Below, in pieces: positions 36,220 through 54,997 of a stretch of DNA of 64,000 nucleotides (position 1 is the stretch's first letter; every line of letters starts with the position of its first letter). The notes under the pieces are model-generated. The model was not told the origin of the DNA and searched no databases. It saw only the letters and a program-made list of their open reading frames with translations. Both the position numbers and the translations under genes were made by a program. Location: the NCBI GenBank assembly GCA_945861465.1, contig CAMAVB010000001.1, positions 62,001-126,000 of the forward strand, given 5' to 3'. This DNA comes from Candidatus Kuenenia stuttgartensis (GTDB taxonomy: Bacteria > Planctomycetota > Planctomycetia > Planctomycetales > Planctomycetaceae).

Positions 36220-39462
<3,243 letters not shown>

Positions 39463-39521: not shown

Positions 39522-41229
39522 CCTGCACTTTAGGCGAGGAACTCATCGCCTTTGGCAACTGATGTTTTCAAAAACACCGAGGCTCACGACAATGATTTAG
39601 AGGTTACCAAGCTTCTAACGCACTGAAGGAGCCACGGATGGCCAAGGGTAAGAAATCGTCGAAGCGTCCGCAAGCGAAGCACAAGCCGAAGAGCCGTTCA
39701 TCGCAGCATGACAAGCGAAAGCGACTCGACACACCGAATCCCCGGCGGAAGAAGACCGTGAAGGCGAAGGTGCCGCTCACCGGGACGATGGCAGGTCTGG
39801 TCACGTCGATGGCCAGCATGCTGGATCGCGCATGGCGTTCCGGTTTTCGATCATTATGGCCGGGATGATGCTGGCCGGTGACCGTCGCGTGGCAGCCTCA
39901 TGGTTCATGGCTGCCGGAGTGCATGATGACTGGGATCGGTTTTATGATTGTCTGATCAGCGTCGGACGCAGGACACGATTGCTGGCTCAGCTGTTGCTGA
40001 TTGCTGTCGTAAGAAAGTTTGCGCCCGGTCCGGATGGTCACATGATTGTCGCGGTTGACGATTCGCCAATGCCGCGATACGGACGGCATGTTGAAGGCGC
40101 GGGCGTGCATCACAATCCGACGGCGGGGCCAGCCGATGGCGAATGGATGTACGGACACAACTGGGTGTCGCTGTGTTTTCTGGCGACGCATTCGCTGTGG
40201 GGAGTGATCGCATTGCCATTGCGATCGCTGCTGTATGTGCGTGAGAAGGACGTGCCTGCGCTGGAAGAGAAATATGGCTGGAAATTCCGCACAAAACTCG
40301 AACTGGCGGTAGATCTCGTGACATGGTTCGTGAAGTCTGTTCGTTCGCTGGACATTGAGTGCAAAATCTGGCTTGTCACCGATGGCGCTTATGCAGGACG
40401 CCCGGTTTTGAAGCCGCTGACCGATCTGGGTGTCGTCGTCTTTAGTCGGTTGCGGAAGGACGCCTGTCTGTTTGATCTGCCTCCTGCGCCAAAGCCCGGT
40501 CAGCCGGGTCGGCACCGCATCTATGGATGCCATCGCATCAGTCTCACAAAGCTTGCCGCTCGTGTGGGCGGTTGGGAGTCGATGACTTATCAATGTCGTG
40601 GTTCGATGGTGACGCGGGAATACAAAACGTTCCTCGCGACATCGCGACGTGTGAGCGGCGTCATCCGCGTTGTGATTGTGCGTTTTGACGATGGCGGCTG
40701 GGCGGCATACTTCTGCACTGACGCGCAGGTCGATGTCCGCGACATCCTCGAGACCGTTGCCGCCCGATGGGCGATCGAAGAGCATTTTTATGACGTGAAG
40801 GAAATCTGGGGAGCCGGTGAACAGCAGGTCCGCAACATCTGGTCGAACATCGGCTGCTGGCACCTGAATCAATGGATGTATACGCTGGTGGAGTTATGCT
40901 CGTGGGATGTCGCAAAACCAAAGCTGACCGACCGCAGCCATCGTCCGTGGGACAATCCCGACCGACGACCGTCTCATGCAGACCGCCGCTCCACAATCGA
41001 CCGAGAAATGCTGCGAAAACAATTTCTGGCGACTCTGCCCCGCACCCTGAACCTGAGGAAATTCAGAACGCTGATCAACGACGTGATCCGCCTGTCCACA
41101 TGACCAAGAGGATTCGCTCAACTGACTCCTGTCTTTTCCGCCAGATCGCCGCAATGCAACTCCACGCCCCAAGACTGCGCCAGTCAAACTCCAACCTCGC
41201 GGACTGTAAAGATTTTGTCTAAACTGCAG
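39522..41229 (+). mobile_element. insertion sequence (approximate ends)
   Basis: transposase plus short terminal similarity CTGCACTTTAGGC / CTGCAGTTTAGAC; left end coincides with the repeat breakpoint. Confidence 0.5.
39638..41103 (+). CDS. IS701-like/DDE transposase in two overlapping frames (39638-39868 and 39832-41103)
   Basis: MAKGKKSSKRP...TSMASMLDRAWR then -1 frame FRFSIIMAGMMLAGDRRVAASWFMAAG...VAVDDSPMPRYGRHVEG...WLVTDGAYAG...RWAIEEHFYDVKE. Confidence 0.75.
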
Positions 41230-41527: not shown

Positions 41528-41583
41528 TGAGTCTCCTTTTTGCCTGACGTAGCGACAGCGGCAACGGGGCGCCGCCCAAAAAA

Positions 41584-41639
41584 AACTATAGTGGCAAATC
41601 TCGCTTTATAGGCGATTGCCGTTCACTGCTTTGTTACGA
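41584..41639 (-). other. attC-like site A (weak)
   Basis: reverse strand GTAACAAAGCAGTGAACGGCAATCGC-CTATAAA-GCGAGATTTGCCACTATAGTT; stop codon of upstream gene lies in the 5' core. Confidence 0.3.
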
Positions 41640-41957
41640 GACGTTGTCCGAAGTTCTCGGTTTGAAGGCGTATTTGAACACGTAGACGAACCACCCAATT
41701 CCGCCAGTGACGAGTATCAGCAGGAGCCAAGTCAACTTCGCGTTCGGATTTACAAACGACCGCAAGTATAGGTCCCTGATTGTAACAACCAGTGCCGCAA
41801 AGTTCAGCGCCATGCCGAGGAAATGGAGAGGGAAGATGGCCACTGGCGAGACTTGCGCACCGTTTGTGGCCCGGACAATTTGCACGAGAAAGTATGGAAT
41901 GTACATGGCCATGTACGCGAGGGCAGTGATCATGATGGCTCGTTCAGTTCGTGTCAC
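41634..41957 (-). CDS. small hypothetical integral membrane protein
   Basis: three hydrophobic spans; candidate cassette ORF. Confidence 0.55.
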   Translation of the reverse strand: MTRTERAIMITALAYMAMYIPYFLVQIVRATNGAQVSPVAIFPLHFLGMALNFAALVVTIRDLYLRSFVNPNAKLTWLLLILVTGGIGWFVYVFKYAFKPRTSDNVS

Positions 41958-41990
41958 GTAGAATTACCTCAGACGCCCGCATCAACCCCG

Positions 41991-42073
41991 CAACGCCAAA
42001 AATCAGGCGGTTGCCGCGACTGACTTGCCATGTGAGAAACCGACGACGGCAACTCGCCTGCATCTTATTAGCC
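41991..42073 (-). other. attC-like site B
   Basis: reverse strand GGCTAATAAGATGCAGGCG[A]GTTGCCG...CGGCAACCGCCTGATTTTTGGCGTT: 13-bp stem with one bulged A; loop conserved with site C. Confidence 0.45.
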
Positions 42074-42556
42074 AATTTCCCCGCTCTGATCTCTGGTGAT
42101 ACCACGGCCACGCTTTTGCGCGAACCAACGCGCTGCACGATTCAAAAGAAAGTGCATCATGATGCACCAGACGACTGTTACTCCGGGATCAATCGTTGAA
42201 AGGAAATGAGAAACTGCAACATCCATCGAACCCCCGTCATGAGGATTCAAATTGGCAAGGAGCATCATAGTCAAGATTGCCGGCAAAGTCAGGATCACAC
42301 CGGGAATGACGATCGCAGGATGATGGTACCAGCTGGGAGGCGAAGGTGATGAGAGTGGCAACGTGTCAAATGCGAAACGGCCCGCGCATGCATACACACA
42401 GATCACGGCAATCAAAAGGCGTACTAATCGGGAATGGGCGAGCATGGCGTACGAAGACTTTACGATTAGTGAATGGAACGCTGTAAAAGCGATAGTCGTT
42501 GACGCAAGCGCGATGCCGTTCCGAGTGCCGGGCTTCGATCCTTGGCTAACGATCAT
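42068..42556 (-). CDS. small hypothetical membrane protein
   Basis: hydrophobic spans; stop codon lies in site B; candidate cassette ORF. Confidence 0.5.
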   Translation of the reverse strand: MIVSQGSKPGTRNGIALASTTIAFTAFHSLIVKSSYAMLAHSRLVRLLIAVICVYACAGRFAFDTLPLSSPSPPSWYHHPAIVIPGVILTLPAILTMMLLANLNPHDGGSMDVAVSHFLSTIDPGVTVVWCIMMHFLLNRAARWFAQKRGRGITRDQSGEIG

Positions 42557-42630
42557 GATCAGCCGGTTGCCTCGACTGACTTTCCACGTGAGAAAGCGCC
42601 GACGGCAACTCGGCTGGATTGTCTCGTTAG
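42546..42630 (-). other. attC-like site C (best)
   Basis: reverse strand CTAACGA-GACAATC-CAGCCG[A]GTTGCC...GGCAACCGGCTG-ATCATGA-TCGTTAG: paired 7-bp outer box, symmetric 7-nt unpaired spacer, 12-bp inner box with one extrahelical A. Confidence 0.55.
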
Positions 42631-43160
42631 TTGGCCTTCTTGGCCTTCATACTCTTGTCGACTTTGTCTCTGTAAAGAACGATTTCGATGTGCTTCATCA
42701 CAGGAGCGTTCGGGAGCCATCTTTGATACACGAGTAACGGATGACCATTGAAAGATCTGCCGAAGCAGAGCGATTGTCCAAATTTGTCAGTTGCCGTGAG
42801 CCAATATCTCTCCGATCCGCTGTCCGGCATACCCGTACTTTTCAATCCGTGGTGTGAATCATGCGACCAGTTGGCGGAATGGAAATCTCCTGACTTGAAG
42901 GTCTGTCGTAGTTCTTCTTGCAGCGTTTCGACTCTCTGGTATGTGGCTTCATCCTTGGCCCGATATTCGGGCCACTGTTGCATGGCTGCTTCAAGTTGCT
43001 CGATTTCCGTCGCGTAATGCCTGTGGATGAAGGCCAGATAAGATCGGAGAGTGATGTATTGCCAAGCGACGAACGCCACAGGCAGTGCGATGATTGCGAG
43101 AACGATTACAACTCGGCGCCGGGCCCGCTTTGTCATTCGCACCTCGTTTCGGATTGCCAA
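42627..43160 (-). CDS. hypothetical protein with N-terminal TM
   Basis: RRRVVIVLAIIALPVAFVAWQYITLRSY; stop codon TAA lies inside site C; candidate cassette ORF. Confidence 0.55.
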   Translation of the reverse strand: MAIRNEVRMTKRARRRVVIVLAIIALPVAFVAWQYITLRSYLAFIHRHYATEIEQLEAAMQQWPEYRAKDEATYQRVETLQEELRQTFKSGDFHSANWSHDSHHGLKSTGMPDSGSERYWLTATDKFGQSLCFGRSFNGHPLLVYQRWLPNAPVMKHIEIVLYRDKVDKSMKAKKAN

Positions 43161-43180
43161 TTAACTCTGAAATACACCCG

Positions 43181-43290
43181 GCGCGTGATATTGGCCACCG
43201 CCGTCTAAAAACACTGAATTTTTGCTGGAGCGTCCCAATATCACACGGTGCGTTCAAGATCAAATATTGGACGCGACGCGGATATCACGG
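43181..43290. repeat. nested inverted repeats around GATATTGG / CCAATATC
   Basis: GCGCGTGATATTGG (43181), CCAATATCACACG (43234), AATATTGGACGC (43263). Confidence 0.4.
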
Positions 43291-43618
43291 TATCAACACG
43301 CCCGAGGAGTGTCAATTTTATCAAACTCGCAATGGACTGCGAGGTGAAGGATGTCTCTGAGCGAAACAGCGAGTTTGGAAAACAGTAGTCGATTGGCAAA
43401 GAATGACACTCAGTGGTGGCCAAATTGGATGGAAGACTACGCTCGCTCCAACAATCAAGTTAATGCGCCGCGAGTCGTTTGCGACCGACGTTGAAGAATG
43501 GCGAGCCTGGCAGCGGGCGCATCCGATGCACAGTGTGCCTCGGGACCTGGCAAATCCCGATGCCGCATTCCGCACGAATCCCGGCAATGCTCTGGATCTG
43601 AGTCAATAGCGCCGCTTT

Positions 43619-43688
43619 GGCGAGCGGCATGCGTCAGCTTGTCGGTACAAAAACGAGGTACCGGATGGCTCACGCCGCTCCGCTCGCC
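43619..43688. repeat. palindromic element GGCGAGCGGC...GCCGCTCCGCTCGCC
   Basis: inverted arms with inner CGGTACAAAAACGAGGTACCG. Confidence 0.5.
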
Positions 43689-43809
43689 GGTCTCATTTCT
43701 GGCCGCGCGGAGTATAACTCGACTTCTCGGCTGGCGGGTTGGCCTTTCAACTTCAGAAGCATCTGAACGCCATTTCGGGTTCCGCACTTTGTTCGCCGGC
43801 CTTGTCGTG

Positions 43810-45787: not shown

Positions 45788-45815
45788 TCAGTGCTTTCTC
45801 TGAGATATCGAATTG

Positions 45816-45853
45816 CGATCTATGCGACGGAATGAATTCCGACGCACAGATCG
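45816..45853. terminator. strong intergenic hairpin
   Basis: CGATCTATGCGACGGAAT-GA-ATTCCGACGCACAGATCG, arms pair over most of 18 bp. Confidence 0.4.
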
Positions 45854-45914
45854 TGTGTTGAACTTGTCCGCTGCGTACTGCTAACGATCTGAATTTGCGA
45901 AGGACGAGGAAATC

Positions 45915-46730
45915 TTATTCCGGTGCATCAGAACGTTCGCCCAACTTGAGGCCAGAGACCAGCAGGAAGTGATCAGAGCCGTGCCGACGAATGATGGTCG
46001 AATCGACGGTATGGAAGTGTTTCGAATGAAAGATGTAGTCAATTCGAAGTTTTAATGGCAGAGGCCGCGTAGGCCAGTGCCATGTGGGATGCGTATCGGC
46101 GTCGGCGTGGATGAATGCGAAGCTGTCAATGAAACCGGACTCGACCAGCGCCGCTGGGGCCTGAAATGACGACAAACTATTGAAGTCGCCAGCAACGATG
46201 GCGGGACGATCAGCATCTGCAGCCTTTAGAATTCCCGCAATCTCCGACGCATGTTTCGATTCGGTTGCTGCGATCGCAGCCATCCCTTCAAGAATGGTGG
46301 CTTCCCGGGGAACGCCAAATGGAGTGAGGTGAACGTTGATCACGCGAACATCAGTTCCGCCACAAGGAAACGTTGCACAATAGAAACCAAACAATCCGTC
46401 CTGGGGCGGAACAAAAACGACATCTCGTGGTTTCGTTCTGGAAGCGAAGACAAAACGTTCAGCGTAGTAGTGGCCCTGATGCCCAACCGCATGGAATTCC
46501 GGGTACGTTGCTGCGAGTTGGGTGCGGAGAAATTGCTCAGACTGAGTAGTCGTTTCCTGCAGGCACAAAATGTCGGCTTTCGACTCTGCGATGGCGTCCA
46601 GAACCTGATCGCCAAGTCGGTTGGCATAATTCACGTTGAACGTGGCGACCCTCACCGACTGCCCGCTCACGAAACTCGGCGTCAGCAAAACAACGATGAA
46701 TATTGATGCAAGGAAGGAGGGACTGCTCAT
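45915..46730 (-). CDS. endonuclease/exonuclease/phosphatase family protein
   Basis: VRVATFNVNYANRLGDQVLDAIAESKADILCLQETT...VAGDFNSLSS...IDYIFHSKHF...GSDHFLLVSGL. Confidence 0.85.
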   Translation of the reverse strand: MSSPSFLASIFIVVLLTPSFVSGQSVRVATFNVNYANRLGDQVLDAIAESKADILCLQETTTQSEQFLRTQLAATYPEFHAVGHQGHYYAERFVFASRTKPRDVVFVPPQDGLFGFYCATFPCGGTDVRVINVHLTPFGVPREATILEGMAAIAATESKHASEIAGILKAADADRPAIVAGDFNSLSSFQAPAALVESGFIDSFAFIHADADTHPTWHWPTRPLPLKLRIDYIFHSKHFHTVDSTIIRRHGSDHFLLVSGLKLGERSDAPE

Positions 46731-46777
46731 AAATCAAACCTTAGCGACCAAGAACAACTGGTGGGCGCGATTGGATT

Positions 46778-47251
46778 TCAATATGAGAAACCACTGACGC
46801 CAGAGCGGCTGGACCATTTTTGTTCGCCGCTTCCGTCAAGTTTCGCCGTTTGAAATCTTAACTGCTGCCGACGCATCAGCATCTTTCCGGGAAGTTTTGG
46901 CTGCAGAACCTGCAGCTGATCAATAGTATCGATCATTGAAAGCATTTGTTCAACTTGGTCGGCGGAAAGTGCCGCAAGAATCCTGGTGTCGTATTCTCTG
47001 CGAAGGTGCCGGGTCCGTGTTCGCAACTGCCGGCACGCGAAACAACTCGACGGAAAGTACTGCGGGTTGAACCTCAGTGCTTCGTAGATGTGGCGTTGCT
47101 CCTCCACGGAAAAAGTGAATTGCGAACCACAATCTTTGCACAAAATGCGAGCAGTAATGTACAGCGAACGCGGTGAAAGTGATCGAACTTGTTGTTCGAC
47201 GTTTGCGATCAGCGTCTGGTTATAGTCGAGGGCCACGTATACACCACTCAT
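46778..47251 (-). CDS. probable zinc-ribbon protein
   Basis: ILCKDCGSQFTFSVEEQRHIYEALRFNPQYFPSSCFACRQLR. Confidence 0.65.
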   Translation of the reverse strand: MSGVYVALDYNQTLIANVEQQVRSLSPRSLYITARILCKDCGSQFTFSVEEQRHIYEALRFNPQYFPSSCFACRQLRTRTRHLRREYDTRILAALSADQVEQMLSMIDTIDQLQVLQPKLPGKMLMRRQQLRFQTAKLDGSGEQKWSSRSGVSGFSY

Positions 47252-47427
47252 GATGAATCGGGGCTCAACAGTGCCATGGTCAAGATTGAAGCATTGATTC
47301 GAAACACTATCGCAGACCGAAAACGTCGCGAACGCATCTGGCGAGAGGTTGTTCGAGTGGTCCGTCATGGTGAAGGCATGCGAGCTTCATGTATACTGTG
47401 TGGTTGAGAATGGCACAATCGTACAAT

Positions 47428-50370: not shown

Positions 50371-50611
50371 TACTCCGCGCGGCCGGGACTGAGGGACGTG
50401 CTGTTAAGTGAGCCGTAAGGCGCTAGCCGCGGGTTGTGCATTCGGTCAGCACCGGCGGCTAGCGCCTTGCCGCTCACAAAACCTCAAATCTGATCGCGCG
50501 GAGTAGAGGACCGGCGGAGAAATAACTGTCGTCTTCCGGGCGTGGGGCACGTTTGTAACGTGCCCGGCAAGATGGAATCGTGCCCCACTTAATTCTGCCG
50601 CAGTCCTTAGC
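50371..50611. repeat. compound repeat: CTCCGCGCG arms enclosing a GGCGCTAGCC palindrome (50408-50477), then a family-1 element (50505-50611)
   Basis: GTGAGCCGTAAGGCGCTAGCCGC...GCGGCTAGCGCCTTGCCGCTCAC; GAGGACCGGCGGAGAAATAACTGTCG...CAGTCCTTAG. Confidence 0.6.
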
Positions 50612-52468: not shown

Positions 52469-52598
52469 CTAAGGCGAGCGGCAGGATAGAACTTACCATC
52501 CGCAATTTGTACGACGGACTTCCAGTCCGTCGAGTAGCACCATGCGACGGACTGGAAGTCCGTCGTACCGGTAAATTCATTTCTGCCGCTCGCCTAAG
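52469..52598 (+). repeat. family-2 MITE-like element, copy 1
   Basis: CTAAGGCGAGCGGCAG...CTGCCGCTCGCCTAAG with inner palindrome GTACGACGGACTTCCAGTCCGTCG... Confidence 0.75.
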
Positions 52599-52781: not shown

Positions 52782-54530
52782 ATGCGATATCTGTTTTCTG
52801 CCGTCTTGCTGTGTGTGCTGATTCCCGCGCCGGGCGTCGCCGACGAAAACTCGACGGGTGACCTGTGGTATGGAACGATGGATGTCGGAATGCGTCTGTT
52901 TCGCTTCCGTGTCGAACCCGTCCCCGAGGCCACAGATTCCTCGTCACAACAACTTGTCAGTCTGGACGAGGGTGGTCAGATCTTCCGCCTTGATGATTTT
53001 CGGCTGGACGACGCAGAACTGCGGTTTGGGCTCAAGCTGACGAAAGCCACCTACTCAGGACGGATTACCGACGGCGGCAAGACCTCAACCGGCAGTTGGA
53101 AGCAATCCGGGCAGGAGTTTGACCTGATCCTTCACAGAGTCGCTGTCGCGCCTGCGGATCGACCGGATGAGATCTGGACCGGCACCATGAATGCATTGTT
53201 TCAAAAACTCGCGATGCGGTTCCGCGTGTATCATGAAGAAGATGGAACTGAAAACTTCTATTTCGACAGCGTGTCGCAGAAATCGGGCGGATTCAAAGCC
53301 ATGCGAACTACGAAAGGCGACCAATGGACGATCAATGTCGCGTCGATCGGCGGGGCTTTCGAGGGTGTCCTGAATGCAGAGAAAACCGAAGTGACTGGCA
53401 AGTGGACTCAGGGCGGCGCAACGCTGGACCTGGTCCTGACGCGGGATGAGTCGCTCAGTGTTGAACCTGTGAAAGCCCCCGTGCGACCGCAAACCCCGAT
53501 GGCACCATTTCCATATCTTGTCGAAGGTGTTTTAATCGGAAATGAGTCCGACGGTGTCCAGCTCGCAGGGACATTGACAGTCCCCAGGACGAATCATCCA
53601 TGCCCTGCGGTCGTGCTGATTTCCGGTTCCGGGCCACAGGATCGTGATGAAACTCTTCTGGATCACAAGCCGTTCTGGGTCATCGCCGATCATCTGTCAA
53701 GACATGGGATCGCCGTGCTGCGATTTGACGATCGAGGCACGGGTGCTTCGACGGGAGATTTCTCCGCGGCAACAAGTGAGAACTTTGCTAACGATGTGGA
53801 AGCGGCATTCGAGTACTTGACACGAGACACAAGGATTGCAAAAAACTCCGTCGGACTCCTGGGACACAGCGAAGGTGGCATGATCGCACCGATGGTGGCG
53901 GCCCGCCGAAACGACGTCGCGTTTGCGATTCTTCTTGCGGGGACGGGCGTGAATGGCAAAGAAATCCTGTTGTCTCAGGGGCAGCTCATTCTTCAGGCCG
54001 AAGGTGTGACCGATGAAAATCTATTGAACACTCAGCGCGTGACGCAACTGGCATTGATAGATACCGTACTGGAAGCAGCAGCCGATGCGACACAGGACGA
54101 ACTGACTGCAGCCGCCATAAAACGACTCACCGAATCGCTGCCGAAAGAGTCATTGCCTGAAGATAATCTGACAGAAACCGTATCCGCCGGAATCCAGCGC
54201 ATGCACAGTCCCTGGTTTCGATTTTTTTTGACATACGAACCAGCCACAATCCTGCAGCGAGTCAAATGTCCGGTGCTGGCTCTGAATGGCGAAAAAGACG
54301 TGCAGGTTGATCCACGCCTGAATCTGCCCGCCATCCATGCCGCTTTGGAAAAAGGCGGCAACACGAATTTCCGAACGGTCGAGTTTCCCGCGATGAACCA
54401 TCTGTTCCAATCCTGCACGACGGGTGGACTGAGCGAATACCAGATGATCGAGGAAACAATTTCCCTGACCGTGCTGGAGACGATCACCGACTGGATCACG
54501 GAAGTGACCACCGAGAATTCGACGAAGTAA
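52782..54530 (+). CDS. secreted alpha/beta hydrolase
   Basis: signal peptide MRYLFSAVLLCVLIPAPGVAD; VLISGSGPQDRDETLLDHKPF...LLGHSEGGMIAPMVAARR...LALNGEKDVQVDP. Confidence 0.85.
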   Translation: MRYLFSAVLLCVLIPAPGVADENSTGDLWYGTMDVGMRLFRFRVEPVPEATDSSSQQLVSLDEGGQIFRLDDFRLDDAELRFGLKLTKATYSGRITDGGKTSTGSWKQSGQEFDLILHRVAVAPADRPDEIWTGTMNALFQKLAMRFRVYHEEDGTENFYFDSVSQKSGGFKAMRTTKGDQWTINVASIGGAFEGVLNAEKTEVTGKWTQGGATLDLVLTRDESLSVEPVKAPVRPQTPMAPFPYLVEGVLIGNESDGVQLAGTLTVPRTNHPCPAVVLISGSGPQDRDETLLDHKPFWVIADHLSRHGIAVLRFDDRGTGASTGDFSAATSENFANDVEAAFEYLTRDTRIAKNSVGLLGHSEGGMIAPMVAARRNDVAFAILLAGTGVNGKEILLSQGQLILQAEGVTDENLLNTQRVTQLALIDTVLEAAADATQDELTAAAIKRLTESLPKESLPEDNLTETVSAGIQRMHSPWFRFFLTYEPATILQRVKCPVLALNGEKDVQVDPRLNLPAIHAALEKGGNTNFRTVEFPAMNHLFQSCTTGGLSEYQMIEETISLTVLETITDWITEVTTENSTK

Positions 54531-54632
54531 GGACCGCTCGAGAAATAACTGTCGACTTTTGGACGTGGGGCACGTTTGTAACGTGCCTGGCACGATGGAA
54601 TCGTGCCCCACTTGTTTCTGTCTCAGTCCTTA
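54528..54632 (+). repeat. family-1 MITE-like element
   Basis: TAAGGACCGCTCGAGAAATAACTGTCG...CAGTCCTTAG with inner GGGGCACG...CGTGCCCCA; shared core with 50505-50611. Confidence 0.7.
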
Positions 54633-54759
54633 GTGCGAGCGGCAGAAGTGAATTTACCGGTACGACGGACTTCCAGTCCGTCGCATGGTGCTACTCGACG
54701 GACTGGAAGTCCGTCGTACAAATTGCGGATGGTAAGTTCTATCCTGCCGCTCGCCTTAG
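54629..54759 (-). repeat. family-2 MITE-like element, copy 2 (inverted)
   Basis: reverse complement of 52469-52598 with one inserted T and one substitution. Confidence 0.75.
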
Positions 54760-54997
54760 TGCGCGGCATGGCGCGTGCCACCGGGAACGGTTCCTGAAAA
54801 ACAGCAGGACACCTCGAGCAAAATCTTTTCCATTCTTTGGCTGCTGCAGAGAATTATTTCAAGTGTTCAAAGTAACGGGAATTCCGATTCACAGTGCTGT
54901 GATGGATTTAAGAGCGTCCATAGTCTGGTCGAAAAAGAAGAAAGGGGGCGTCGGATCATTCCGCGCGTGACTGACATGGCTTTGCGGCTTTGACTGC

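Follow-up and report, generated by a model that had tools for sequence, protein, structure and literature searches.

Two similar palindromic sequences, sites B and C, lie on the reverse strand of the 64,000-nucleotide stretch of DNA that was analysed (the window), and the question raised by this locus is whether they are attC recombination sites or copies of an ordinary repeat. We consider it almost certain that they are the attC sites of two consecutive cassettes in an integron with a truncated integrase gene (intI).

Position, stem and fold of sites B and C

The two sites were scored with three models (R1, R2 and R3, given in this order):

41988-42075, reverse strand: attC of cassette 2 (site B); 88.2, 82.9 and 38.9 bits
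42544-42631, reverse strand: attC of cassette 1 (site C); 95.0, 90.0 and 55.7 bits

Both were found on the strand and at the coordinates given in the original prediction, and they match each other at 87% across 62 nt. The stems it described (CAGGCG[A]GTTGCCG/CGGCAACCGCCTG in site B and CAGCCG[A]GTTGCC/GGCAACCGGCTG in site C) were recovered, as were the double-sided swap between C:G and G:C in the outer stem, the bulged A kept in both sites and the near-identical apical sequence. The limits drawn at that time were those of the inner stem and left out the boxes at the outer ends. Outside the inner stem site C reads CTAACGA ... TCGTTAGCC; in the majority of the other copies the left flank is NNGAACAA or NNTAACAA and the right flank TCGTTNNNN. 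These outer segments are the attC boxes R'' and R'. The inner stem is the L box, the bulged A the extrahelical base and the two stretches between them the unpaired spacer, and the top of the folded site is what is termed the variable terminal structure (PMC11641012). The sites thus show the features by which attC is defined, i.e. an imperfect palindrome with R and L boxes, an unpaired spacer and one or more extrahelical bases (PMC11641012), with one extrahelical base being clear (A, equal to T on the bottom strand) as compared to the usual two to three.

Folding of the reverse strand with DNA parameters, which had been proposed as a check, gave a divided result: site C was far more stable than shuffled versions of it (z = -4.75, with 0/200 as stable), whereas site B by itself, although its stem forms, was no better than shuffled sequence (z = 0.3). 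Site B also has a poor R box when paired with its own R'. A poor R box together with an unremarkable fold is expected for a swapped end, and equally for decay.

Cassettes, attI site and remains of intI

The integron crossover takes place at G^TT of R', and the last R' bases therefore belong to the cassette that follows. For this reason the R' half proper to a cassette stands at its 5' end, inside the R' of the previous site. The locus contains the following features:

43351..43488, forward strand: 5' stub of the integron integrase gene intI, about 41-46 codons (MSLSETASLENSSRLAKNDTQWWPNWMEDYARSNNQVNAPR...), then a stop
43163..43350, reverse strand: intI upstream region with the attI site, crossover G^TT at 43165/43164
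42550..43164, reverse strand: cassette 1 (615 bp), ORF 42627-43160 (177 aa)
41994..42549, reverse strand: cassette 2 (556 bp), ORF 42068-42556 (162 aa)
41547..41993, reverse strand: probable cassette 3, ORF 41634-41957 (107 aa, PLDc_N by Pfam) with a weak attC
about 41547-41643, reverse strand: weak attC of the probable cassette 3 (R2 with filters off, 13.2 bits, E = 0.32)
46739-46826, reverse strand: third clear attC (R1 33.9 bits, R2 57.5 bits), at the end of ORF 46778-47368 (zf_Tbcl)

Neither the intI stub nor the attI site was part of the original prediction. The stub is 65% identical to residues 1-46 of the intact 452-aa IntI of a relative, G008 (tblastn, E = 4e-13), and was also matched in a protein search of its own genome (E = 7e-13). 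It lies mid-contig on C1, within a contig of 128 kb, and is therefore not an assembly end. The attI region is 81% identical to contigs C147 and C159 of the same genome and 83% identical to the sequence upstream of the intact G008 intI. Over 43162-43477 the identity is 81-83% to C147:8774-9051, C159:16715-17030 and G008:C193:17805-18049, the last of these being the start and upstream region of the intact 452-codon integrase gene. A shared stretch like CACGCGGCGCGTGTAATTCAGAGTT closes the upstream part, and at eight loci the common sequence stops at GTT (GTA in one case and GTC in another) and is followed by divergent sequence. The end of the shared sequence is the attI site, at whose crossover cassette 1 begins. 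A TTGACA hexamer is conserved in the alignment of the attI region and could be a candidate promoter element; a sigma-70 promoter scan gave no full match.

At the attI boundary, where ORF 42627-43160 starts, GTTAATTGGC (43165-43156) is the pairing partner of the R'' of site C (GCCAACTAAC). The start of cassette 2 (GTTAGCCAA) pairs with the R'' of site B (TTGGCTAAT) in eight contiguous pairs, and the R'' of the weak attC (CTCGTAAC) pairs with the start of cassette 3 (GTTGCGGG), partly through G-T. Of the cassettes, two have firm boundaries and a third is probable. No Pfam family was found over the cut-off for the ORF of cassette 1, nor any Pfam family for that of cassette 2, and a search for anti-phage defence genes among the cassettes gave no PADLOC match.

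At this locus the attI site is followed by cassettes, and of the intI that would adjoin attI only codons 1-46 remain. Given the intI stub, the attI site and the bounded cassettes, the region from 41.5 to 43.5 kb is a decapitated integron. Read along the reverse strand, its order is the intI remains (coded on the forward strand), attI, cassette 1 with site C, cassette 2 with site B, and probably a third cassette with a decayed attC. Each cassette would have been inserted as a circle by IntI, which recognises attC as a folded bottom strand and joins this strand to attI at G^TT. As the intI of this locus is dead, any present movement would need an integrase acting in trans.

Past the downstream end of the array there is a DDE-transposase gene (39832-41103), and the neighbouring gene 36220-39462 has the planctomycete-type domains PSCyt1, PSCyt2 and PSD1, which, beside the guess made in the original prediction, are the ground for taking this genome to be that of a planctomycete. 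On the other side, the genes from 43.8 to 47.4 kb, including the attC at 46739-46826, which stands apart from the attI-headed array, resemble older cassettes that may have lost most of their sites. No empty-site relative was found for the locus; in G011 and G014 the flanks (to 39483 and from 47776) are on different contigs.

Several other repeats were seen in the window. A dispersed repeat of about 100 nt at 43617-43717 has several copies in G011 and G014 (92-94% identical) and less similar ones in G012. A near-perfect palindrome at 45809-45872 (CGATCTGTGCGTCGGAATTCATTCCGTCGCATAGATCG) follows ORF 45915-46730 and has an 83% identical copy near an attC in G005:C198. Two further families, of about 100 and 130 nt (50507-50609, 54528-54632, 52469-52598 and 54627-54761), are mostly 86-98% identical and common to C52, C100, C345 and other contigs.

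Integrases elsewhere in the genome

The assembly is fragmented (474 contigs, 3.7% estimated contamination). Full-length integrase genes are present on C322 and C223. On C102 and C333 the gene is truncated by the end of the contig, on C52 it has lost an internal part and on C191 and C269 it is disrupted, while intI stubs or attI pieces are found on C1, C147, C159, C281, C46, C51, C6 and C62. The translation of the C223 copy, examined by eye, has HSLL where HxxR is expected, and of the two full-length copies only that on C322 appears to keep the catalytic set of a tyrosine recombinase. The C322 gene would be the candidate for movement in trans.

The IntI of the relatives matches the NCBIfam model TIGR02249 with 434 bits (cut-off 265) and, like Vibrio IntI4 (PDB 2A3V), to which one of them aligns over residues 138-452 (E = 3e-83), includes the IntI-specific region. 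Unlike IntI4, it has about 125-135 extra N-terminal residues. This extension (...WWPKWMETYAR...RLRDSGKSAWVRLQVVRAVEFYQ...) was seen at L144:3574-4932 (G008:C193), L020:6719-8047 (own C322) and L112:5816-7255 (G003:C68) and has no Pfam family above the cut-off; by eye, it could be a second core-binding domain. The genes at L023:7062-7889 (C333) and L024:10971-11843 (C191) carry an in-frame insert (...SALSGTFSPESGEKG...) between the IntI-specific region and RRHHIHE, which resembles a small repeat inserted in coding sequence.

The number of stubs bears on how the head of the array is to be understood. The stub and attI could together be a small unit that was copied around the genome as a landing site served in trans, rather than a decayed head, and the stubs of 33, 41-46, 73 and about 96 codons with attI-like pieces on C147, C1, C281, C159, C46, C51, C6 and C62 are compatible with this. 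The stubs end at different codons, however (33 on C147, about 93-96 on C159, 73 on C281 and 41-46 in the window), which fits independent decay better, and we consider the copied unit improbable. It is still less probable that an integrase working in trans placed the cassettes singly at attG-like sites in this chromosomal spot, with no local integron at any time. The absence of the local intI past codon 46 and the other intI genes in the genome would agree with such placement, and it would most simply account for the solitary attC at 46739-46826, but for the array at 41.5-43.5 kb it is largely refuted by the stub, which together with attI lies directly before cassette 1, both order and orientation being correct.

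Copies, covariation and arrays of the attC family

A DNA search with the 640-bp stretch of the two sites gave further copies in the same genome on contigs C345, C147 (three), C52 and C100. These keep most of the stem, and some have other double-sided changes (e.g. CACAGG/CCTGTG on C147 at 9637). The model scan that had been suggested gave 22 matches in this genome at E up to 1 with a model from eight sites and 33 at E up to 0.01 with a loop-blanked model, the E-values being rough given a shortened calibration, and arrays in relatives. At least 33 attC sites were thus found in the genome, and three clear sites and one weak in the window. A pattern scan for the attC core in the genome_contigs collection, from which this genome and its close relatives may be absent, gave no match.

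Over 64 sites, whose alignment was fitted to the model and therefore leans towards structure, 95.7% of the cells of the L-box helix hold standard pairs, double-sided changes occur in 213 cells as compared to 88 in shuffles, and the covariation score is 0.40 against 0.14 for shuffled and 0.03-0.06 for slid partners. In eight sites aligned without a model, covariation was already above that of shuffles and slid partners, in the same direction as in the 64-site set. The selection on the folded strand that was originally proposed from covariation therefore holds, given the strong covariation across the family.

Among the 59 related genomes surveyed (including the one studied here), attC matches were found in 24 and integron-integrase matches at E up to 1e-30 in 26; the two co-occur across genomes (same genus, Fisher's Exact Test, p = 0.008). 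Arrays of up to nine sites in a single orientation were found on G014:C102, G027:C17, G003:C68, G003:C53 and the own contig C147, mostly with steps of 0.4-1.7 kb. An integrase gene adjoins arrays and points away from them, the usual layout, on G003:C68, G003:C7, G023:C106, G023:C170, G032:C90 and the own contigs C52 and C223, and it has the same direction as the sites on G049:C17 and G032:C270. The sites of an array share one orientation, as a rule with one site ending each small ORF. At 13 loci, 46/58 sites were located at a same-strand ORF end, as compared to 21.3 +/- 3.7 for random positions and 28 for opposite-strand ORF ends. Random positions unrelated to the ends of small ORFs, which had been named as the sign of an ordinary REP-like repeat, were therefore not what was seen.

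A 302-nt sequence found at L036:1-302 (C148) and L039:1-302 (C142) is 99% identical between the two, and its end falls in the R'' box of a different attC site in each; 27 nt of it are also present at the end of C281. A single gene with two attC sites was considered for this sequence and rejected, given that it has no long ORF and is located at contig starts. A mobile element that ends here is the likelier source. Some IS1111-type elements target attC, and the sequence is possibly the end of such an attC-targeting insertion sequence.

Exchange of R' ends between neighbouring cassettes

The crossover at G^TT leaves a trace in the sequence that the original prediction had missed, the swapping of R' ends between neighbouring cassettes. 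The five bases before AAC of R'' were compared with the complement of R' for 37 neighbouring pairs in arrays. R'' matched the R' of the previous site at 4.16 of 5 bases and its own R' at 2.11 of 5 (Wilcoxon test, p = 1.4e-5), and reshuffled partners gave 2.15 +/- 0.19, with 0/10000 reaching 4.16. The same was observed in the window, where the R'' of site B matched the R' of site C at 5/5 bases and its own R' at 0/5, with eight contiguous pairs between TTGGCTAA and TTAGCCAA. Both the array pairs and the window thus have the R' end that belongs to the next cassette.

Such an exchange offers no place for a dispersed REP/BIME-like palindrome or a transcription terminator after genes without a role in recombination, a reading that would account for short palindromes near ORF ends with many copies per genome and that we rejected as hardly credible on the partner test and the ORF-end placement, given that a terminator or REP element provides no reason for R' ends to be exchanged between neighbours exactly at GTT, that arrays are uniform in orientation and adjoined by intI and attI, and that position and orientation are related to gene ends and neighbouring copies, contrary to what defines REP/BIME elements. 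The reading of sites B and C as attC is supported by the R'' and R' boxes, the partner test, the ORF ends, the uniform orientation and the integrases adjoining arrays; recombination via the bottom strand by IntI would be the mechanism.

Conservation of the apical loop

The conserved loop of the original prediction is present in the close subfamily, in which the apical sequence is near-constant, and only partial in the wider set. Across the 64 sites loop identity was 46% even where the L arms were less than half identical, against 26% with shuffled loop letters, and about equal to that of the spacers. These sites came from models that had seen the loop, and the loop-blind model R3 was therefore built. 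R3 recovers nearly the same sites, and only 3-4/12 of its new sites carry a TTTnAAAT-like core (about 0.1 in shuffles); its recovery of sites without the loop weakened the case for the loop as a defining feature of attC. The loop is partly conserved and not required, and common descent is enough to explain its conservation. The terminal structure of attC has been described as having a 'yet unknown function' (PMC11641012).

Relation to known integrons

Integrons of Planctomycetes and an attC model for this group have already been published (PMC2426708, PMC8352920). The present sites are like the chromosomal attC sites of Planctomycetes (Ghaly et al. 2021, PMC8352920) in the folded-strand hairpin, the R''/L''/L'/R' boxes, the conservation of structure within the taxon and the arrays at ends of small ORFs; compared by description, the present subfamily seems to share more of the apical loop than is usual for attC. 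The locus also resembles the CALIN of IntegronFinder, a cluster of attC sites lacking an integron-integrase, described as proposed degraded integrons, in that two or more attC sites are present while no intI match nearby exceeds the threshold (PMC9024848). Unlike in a CALIN, an intI stub and attI remain, and the origin from a local integron can be read directly.

An integron with cassettes and attC is a well-known kind of element, and what is unusual here is a genome so full of integron remains, with a dozen or more mostly broken platforms, along with an IntI whose N-terminal extension is unannotated and an apical loop that is conserved in part. A wider and rather unlikely idea is that in this genus integron heads (intI and attI) multiply and decay within one genome, giving a dozen or more platforms with nearly all intI broken. 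On this idea the platforms would be retained as attI/attC landing sites on which a single surviving IntI, with a new N-terminal domain, acts in trans, and the apical loop of attC would carry a signal in its sequence in addition to its shape.

The limits of the cassettes, the attI site and the decay of the integrase can all be read from this one locus, and the R''-R' partner test is a mechanistic sequence test that is usable without an integrase. A family with a partly kept loop sequence and changing stems makes the function of the attC terminal structure testable, and a genome in which many integrons are broken and a few integrases at most are whole lends itself to the question of whether one IntI serves several platforms.
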